From the NCBI GenBank assembly GCA_019236485.1, contig JAFAIY010000462.1:1-15953 (forward strand): a stretch of DNA of 15,953 nucleotides. Direction: 5' to 3'. Position numbers and translations under genes: made by a program. Of the stretch, positions 12,614 to 12,669 are shown in pieces (within the stretch, counting starts at the first letter, position 1; each line of letters starts with the position of its first letter). The notes beneath the pieces were generated by a model that did not search any database, was not told the origin of the DNA, and worked only from the letters and a program-made list of their open reading frames with translations. Source of the DNA: Comamonas sp. (lineage in GTDB: Bacteria; Pseudomonadota; Gammaproteobacteria; Burkholderiales; Burkholderiaceae_C).

Positions 12614-12669
12614 ATGCAACCAGTTGCATTTCAAAGAGGTAGCGGATAGATTCATGCAACCAGTTGCAT
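12614..12669 (+). promoter_or_regulatory. fadH promoter bracketed by two identical 16-bp operators
   Basis: ATGCAACCAGTTGCAT occurs at 12614-12629 and again at 12654-12669, 40 bp apart; each is a palindrome with 7-bp arms. TTGCAT (12624-12629) within site 1 and TAGATT (12647-12652), spaced 17 bp, form a plausible promoter, with the RNA start predicted inside site 2 and the fadH ATG at 12683. A repressor bound to both sites would cover the -35 and the start point. The ATGC-N8-GCAT layout resembles the ATGT-N8-ACAT sites of PadR proteins, and a padR gene lies at 15159-15719. Confidence 0.72.

Follow-up and report, generated by a model that had tools for sequence, protein, structure and literature searches.

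Two identical copies of the palindrome ATGCAACCAGTTGCAT, lying exactly 40 bp apart in front of a fadH gene in Comamonas sp., are very probably the operators of a nearby AphA-like regulator of the PadR family (encoded at 15159-15719), which, judging from sequence comparison, would repress the promoter shared by fadH and the SnoaL-like gene behind it. Both palindromes match the known consensus of AphA, the promoter between them is conserved among relatives, and their presence before fadH follows that of the PadR gene from genome to genome.

The paired palindromes and the fadH promoter

The window (the whole stretch of DNA analysed, 15,953 nucleotides) carries site 1 at 12614-12629 and site 2 at 12654-12669, where the first-pass annotation had noticed the twin palindromes and judged their exact duplication unlikely to be accidental. 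Each 16-mer consists of 7-bp arms flanking a central CA, and is a perfect palindrome apart from these two central bases. When the window was scanned on both strands allowing up to 3 mismatches, only these two places were found (four matches); shuffled windows gave 0.15 matches on average and 3 at most, none of the 200 shuffles reaching four. In the organism's own draft genome (4.08 Mb, 87% complete), the two window sites are alone in matching ATGCAACNNGTTGCAT with at most one mismatch. Two more places match at 2 mismatches; a backward control pattern, allowed up to 2 mismatches, gave 5 matches on each strand.

The gene downstream of the sites (12683-14704, plus strand, 673 aa) belongs to the 2,4-dienoyl-CoA reductase family according to Pfam and to its alignment with E. 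coli FadH (1ps9), which is full-length (residues 4-671 to 2-669, 990 bits) and includes the conserved C-x2-C-x3-C-x11-C stretch. A FadH is expected to match over its full length, with flavin, [4Fe-4S] cysteine and NAD(P)-binding parts, and the alignment agrees with this. No second FadH of like strength was found in the own draft genome, the next match scoring 174 bits. The fadH gene is followed by one for a SnoaL-like small protein (PF12680; 14729-15169, plus strand), the probable second gene of the operon, and some of the relatives likewise have a homologue of it behind fadH. The padR gene lies just beyond, as had been noted, on the minus strand and running against the SnoaL gene; its open frame extends to 15734 (191 aa), but the ATG at 15719 agrees with MSLPH, the start seen in the family. 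A short inverted repeat upstream of padR, GCATC-N6-GATGC (15762-15777), is not of the operator form and may be due to chance.

The predicted -35 hexamer of the fadH promoter, TTGCAT (12624-12629, plus strand), is the 3' half of site 1, and the predicted -10 hexamer, TAGATT (12647-12652, plus strand), follows at 17 bp; site 2 lies over the expected transcription start. This layout, found as originally described, could be examined in a first set of 36 promoters, taken from the pairs found on the PadR side and from the fadH-side loci described below, in which both sites had no more than 3 mismatches, lay at least 37 bp apart and pointed to fadH. Site 1 ends mostly in TTGCAT across this set, and a TAnnnT element occurs 17 or 18 bp past its end in 33 of the 36 promoters, against a highest count of 8 over 2000 shuffles. 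The same position was occupied in all of 18 further promoters outside the set from which the rule had been made (largest shuffle count, 5). Because this spacing is conserved in both sets, the predicted -35 and -10 elements are upheld. The rule fails in the pairs whose centres are 31-34 bp apart (L010, L012, L018, L092, L160 and L163); in the first three of these, the promoter seems, as we read the sequences individually and not from a count, to have moved upstream, placing site 1 in its spacer.

An AphA-like member of the PadR family

The PadR protein of the window contains PF03551 (41.4 bits) and PF10400 (73.4 bits), both above cut-off, and this combination of a PadR winged helix with a large C-terminal Vir_act_alpha_C domain places it in subfamily 1. 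Among solved structures, those closest to it in sequence are 8ioi (E 1.3e-28) and AphA of Vibrio cholerae (1yg2, E 1.4e-23). In the alignment, THQQIYREL of the window protein corresponds to SHQQVYREL of AphA, a stretch which we take, from general knowledge of winged helices, to be the recognition helix; it is nearly invariant among the aligned PadR orthologues.

The operator of PadR of Bacillus subtilis, a member of subfamily 1, is ATGT-N8-ACAT, and the palindromes had at first been likened to it. As far as the form of a PadR-family site is concerned the likeness holds, but the AphA consensus ATGCAA-N4-TTGCAT is the closer match. Subfamily 1 proteins, for which a size class of about 180-190 aa is given and which bind their two-fold symmetric sites as dimers, share with the present system both the protein family and the half-site geometry ATG.-N8-.CAT (PMC3506622); the half-site differs (ATGT in B. 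subtilis versus ATGCAAC here), and the target here is not a phenolic acid decarboxylase.

Both window sites agree at 12 of 12 positions with the consensus ATGCAA-N4-TTGCAT derived for AphA by ChIP-seq (PMC6855506), and the two proteins are further alike in family, in full-length similarity and in their near-identical recognition helices. AphA is described as binding two adjacent sites cooperatively, and paired sites are likewise present here; it is also described as binding poor matches to its consensus, and as activating as well as repressing (PMC6855506). On the other hand, AphA acts in quorum sensing and controls a broad regulon, whereas here strong sites are few and the target is a metabolic enzyme; moreover, its pair of sites at tfoX falls within a 37-bp footprint, which is closer than the 40 bp between centres in the window (PMC6855506). 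The regulator is here called AphA-like, and not AphA. Among 50 related genomes, exact copies of ATGCAACNNGTTGCAT occur in 19, all of which possess PadR, with one copy each except for one genome with three; the reversed control pattern occurs in none. These counts, between one and three exact sites in the relatives and two sites with at most one mismatch in the own draft genome, speak for a small target set, with the qualification that AphA also binds poor matches. In Fluviicoccus, a frame on the minus strand (ATG at 665) is preceded at 60 bp by a third exact site (L051, position 725), some 5 kb away from the pair at fadH.

In E. coli, fadH is controlled by FadR, CRP and ArcA (PMC9329746). FadR resembles the present regulator in having a repressor site over the fadH promoter, which for the window is a prediction, but it controls fatty-acid breakdown globally (PMC9329746), whereas here a PadR protein has its strong sites at fadH. 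PrhP of Ralstonia solanacearum was weighed as a known relative; its paper gives an identity of about 37% with several PadR regulators, AphA among them, and reports no conserved palindrome at fcs and nag. For the PadR of PMC8128862, the reported motif is a different one. Among the matches listed, titles and abstract openings in the open-licence PMC literature, no earlier description of an AphA-like PadR at fadH was found. Thus, the type of regulator and its operator are known from AphA, while the pairing with fadH is apparently new.

Co-occurrence of sites and regulator

Relatives of FadH were scanned in species genomes, and the best 80 of 275 loci were kept. A site, defined as a match with up to 2 mismatches within 300 bp before fadH, is present in 39 of these 80 loci. 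PadR lies within 33 of the 80, and all 33 have a site; in the six other site-bearing loci (L017, L025, L033, L036, L039 and L073), PadR is found elsewhere in the genome or is cut by the end of the contig. PadR was then sought in 50 genomes out of the 80 loci, which were picked with the motif status already known; 15 site-bearing loci in which PadR had been seen, and 15 with neither site nor PadR in the stretch, were left out. Together with the window, these 51 genomes comprise 25 with PadR and site, 2 with PadR and no site, none with a site and no PadR, and 24 with neither (Fisher p 1.5e-12, a value which ignores kinship). On a FadH tree built by a quick method, nine independent pairs of genomes differ in PadR; seven of them agree with the association, none is opposite and two show no difference in the site (sign test, p 0.016). 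The check proposed at the outset, i.e. whether the palindrome before fadH tracks padR in relatives, has thus come out in favour of the association, with the site in 25 of 27 genomes with PadR versus 0 of 24 without.

The two misses among the PadR-positive genomes, L070 and L076, are other, distant copies of fadH, and the PadR genes of these genomes are neighbours of a SnoaL gene and of a different fadH, where the sites are found. Among the PadR-negative loci, L055 has one site with 2 mismatches and a -10-like TAAACT beside a 5'-truncated fadH (5850-6020). It was scored as lacking the site because the 300-bp rule used an extrapolated fadH start; if it is scored as site-bearing, the PadR-negative row becomes 1 of 24. 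The site reads as a decaying relic. TAAACT is retained 56-86 bp before the (aligned) fadH start in 7 of the 24 PadR-negative loci, namely the truncated L055 and L024, L037, L038, L040, L042 and L050, and in the latter six both sites are gone. In L047 the same hexamer occurs at 167 bp before the start, and in the other 16 of the 24 no TAAACT was found within 200 bp of fadH.

The association was also approached from the side of the regulator. Out of 299 genomes of the family, 34 contain PadR at E 1e-20, the own genome included. With a threshold of at least 170 bits, and with the own copy and two weak relatives (111 and 105 bits) set aside, 32 orthologues in 31 genomes were retained, i.e. 29 loci plus L187, L188 and L085; for L162 a longer stretch, L186, was needed. 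At least one site with up to 2 mismatches is present at all 32 of these non-self orthologues, a pair at 30 of them, and 31 of these orthologues are neighbours of fadH; shuffling predicts 0.35 loci with a site among the 29. Exact paired sites occur in 7 of the 34 family genomes with PadR versus 0 of the 265 without. The sole non-fadH case among the 32 is L168 (2102-3194, the second PadR orthologue of genome G283), where the pair precedes a gene of 343 aa whose product has a nitronate monooxygenase domain. At L150 (1500-3052, genome G648), a PadR orthologue with paired sites has an AMP-binding enzyme about 1 kb beyond the other side of the sites, and no fadH was seen. In the Ralstonia genome G344 (L125, 1450-1516), two sites 51 bp apart precede a SnoaL gene; PadR is close by, and no fadH was seen in the stretch.

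The two weak relatives have one site each, with 1 mismatch in L189 and with 3 in L190 (105 bits). In the genus sample, PadR was found in 7 of 41 genomes, own included (E 1e-3), and the weakest of these relatives (L147, 118 bits) has the same helix and no site in its stretch. In the order sample of 399 genomes, exact pairs of the 14-mer occur in three, own included. In the class sample of 229 genomes, PadR at E 1e-30 was found in the own genome alone, and the clade is therefore patchy.

The 40 bp between centres in the window correspond to 3.8 turns at 10.5 bp per turn, and the 62 distinct paired sites (up to 2 mismatches each) have centre distances of 31-34 (6 pairs), 37-43 (49) and 48-53 bp (7), with none at 35-36 or 44-47 bp; when the pairs are grouped into 34 rough clusters, the three classes count 6, 22 and 6. 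Spacings near 3, 4 or 5 helical turns hint at cooperation between the two bound dimers. It should be noted, however, that helical phasing is suggestive only, because a circular statistic does not set 10.5 bp apart from other periods (0.654 at 10.5 bp, and 0.63-0.65 across 9.5 to 12 bp).

Ownership of the sites and mode of regulation

That the site follows the PadR orthologue across genomes, and that it has the form of a PadR-family (AphA) consensus, argues on sequence grounds for the nearby PadR as the dedicated regulator, as the first-pass annotation had proposed. In the mechanism we envisage, each site would be bound by one PadR dimer through a recognition helix of the AphA type. As site 1 covers the -35 element and site 2 the start, PadR sitting there would exclude RNA polymerase from the fadH-SnoaL promoter. 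A small-molecule ligand would release it; by analogy with PadR, this may be an acid, aromatic or unsaturated, or the corresponding CoA ester.

Repression is deduced solely from the position of the sites, because AphA can also activate. It is conceivable, but improbable, that PadR binds here and mainly activates fadH, or acts either way depending on conditions. Both modes of action are documented for AphA (PMC6855506), but sites covering the -35 element and the start of the predicted promoter normally block the polymerase, and the same logic applies to the FadR site of E. coli, which generally overlaps the -10/+1 region (PMC9329746).

The gene order bears on the question of which gene the sites belong to. 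In 31 of the 33 fadH loci holding padR, the two genes are divergent and the sites lie in the gap that separates them, while in the other two (L013 and L054), and likewise in L186, padR lies downstream of fadH in the same direction. One of them, L054, is a Kitasatospora record with a site at fadH and PadR downstream, taxonomically far from Proteobacteria, for which transfer or contamination is possible. Since the divergent order is usual in relatives, the downstream padR of the window is unusual, and the window is alone among the loci examined in having it both downstream and opposed. The prevailing adjacency might mean that padR and the sites are merely co-inherited neighbours, the sites serving autoregulation of padR with fadH as a bystander. 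Three more distant PadR paralogues with no fadH in their stretches (L118, 1427; L119, 2040; L120, 1421; 34-46% identical) do have ATGCAA-N4-TTGCAT just before their own gene, which suggests that they are autoregulated. Nevertheless, we regard the bystander reading as highly improbable. Where padR is not divergent (the window, L013, L054, L186, and L191 and its kin), the sites are retained at fadH, and they can therefore be said to belong to fadH. In L191, from Aquabacterium, padR lies at a distance of about 10.7 kb and lacks its own site with up to 2 mismatches, nor was any such site found within the stretches around the relocated padR of Aquabacterium and its kin (L107, L109, L111, L112 and L114). 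In addition, the -10 element of fadH keeps its place with respect to site 1 in both promoter sets (33 of 36 and 18 of 18). In the divergent order, the sites probably serve padR as well; in the window, autoregulation is unsupported because padR is without a site of its own. Because padR usually adjoins the sites, the joint loss of the two could in part reflect a single deletion.

Finally, binding of the palindromes by the MarR-family protein encoded at 11572-12240 (minus strand), whose gene is about 0.4 kb from the sites and which is also of a winged-helix family, is hardly credible and was rejected, considering that the fetched stretches of the best 80 of 275 fadH loci, 39 of them site-bearing, yielded no homologue (E 1e-4), and that a perfect inverted repeat of its own, GTTGATAC-N10-GTATCAAC (12194-12219), lies just upstream of the gene. 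This repeat, of which shuffles lead one to expect none, is the probable operator of the MarR protein. The genes at 9743-12240 on the minus strand (ketopantoate reductase-like, class II aldolase-like and MarR) form a separate cluster, and a search of the DNA flanking fadH at the best 80 of 275 loci gave no homologues of the three.

Regulation of fadH by PadR, our preferred reading, may be extended to a wider picture, which we put forward tentatively and which, with all its parts taken together, is rather unlikely to hold. PadR-fadH(-SnoaL) would be a mobile substrate-sensing module, spread over Burkholderiales, Moraxellaceae, Caulobacterales and an actinomycete record. The AphA-type operator would characterise a clade with chiefly metabolic roles, and the virulence regulator of Vibrio would have been recruited from that clade. 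The two dimers would cooperate on one face of the DNA, as the spacings near 3, 4 or 5 helical turns suggest, the inducer would be an unsaturated acyl compound, and the orthologues at L168 (nitronate monooxygenase-like) and L150 (AMP-binding enzyme) would be re-targeted copies.

An apparently uncharacterised clade of PadR regulators thus gains a defined target, operator and promoter layout. The results suggest that a textbook helper enzyme of beta-oxidation can be under a dedicated switch, and not under the general FadR circuit. They also suggest that the AphA operator serves metabolism in environmental bacteria, which bears on the origin of the cholera regulator.
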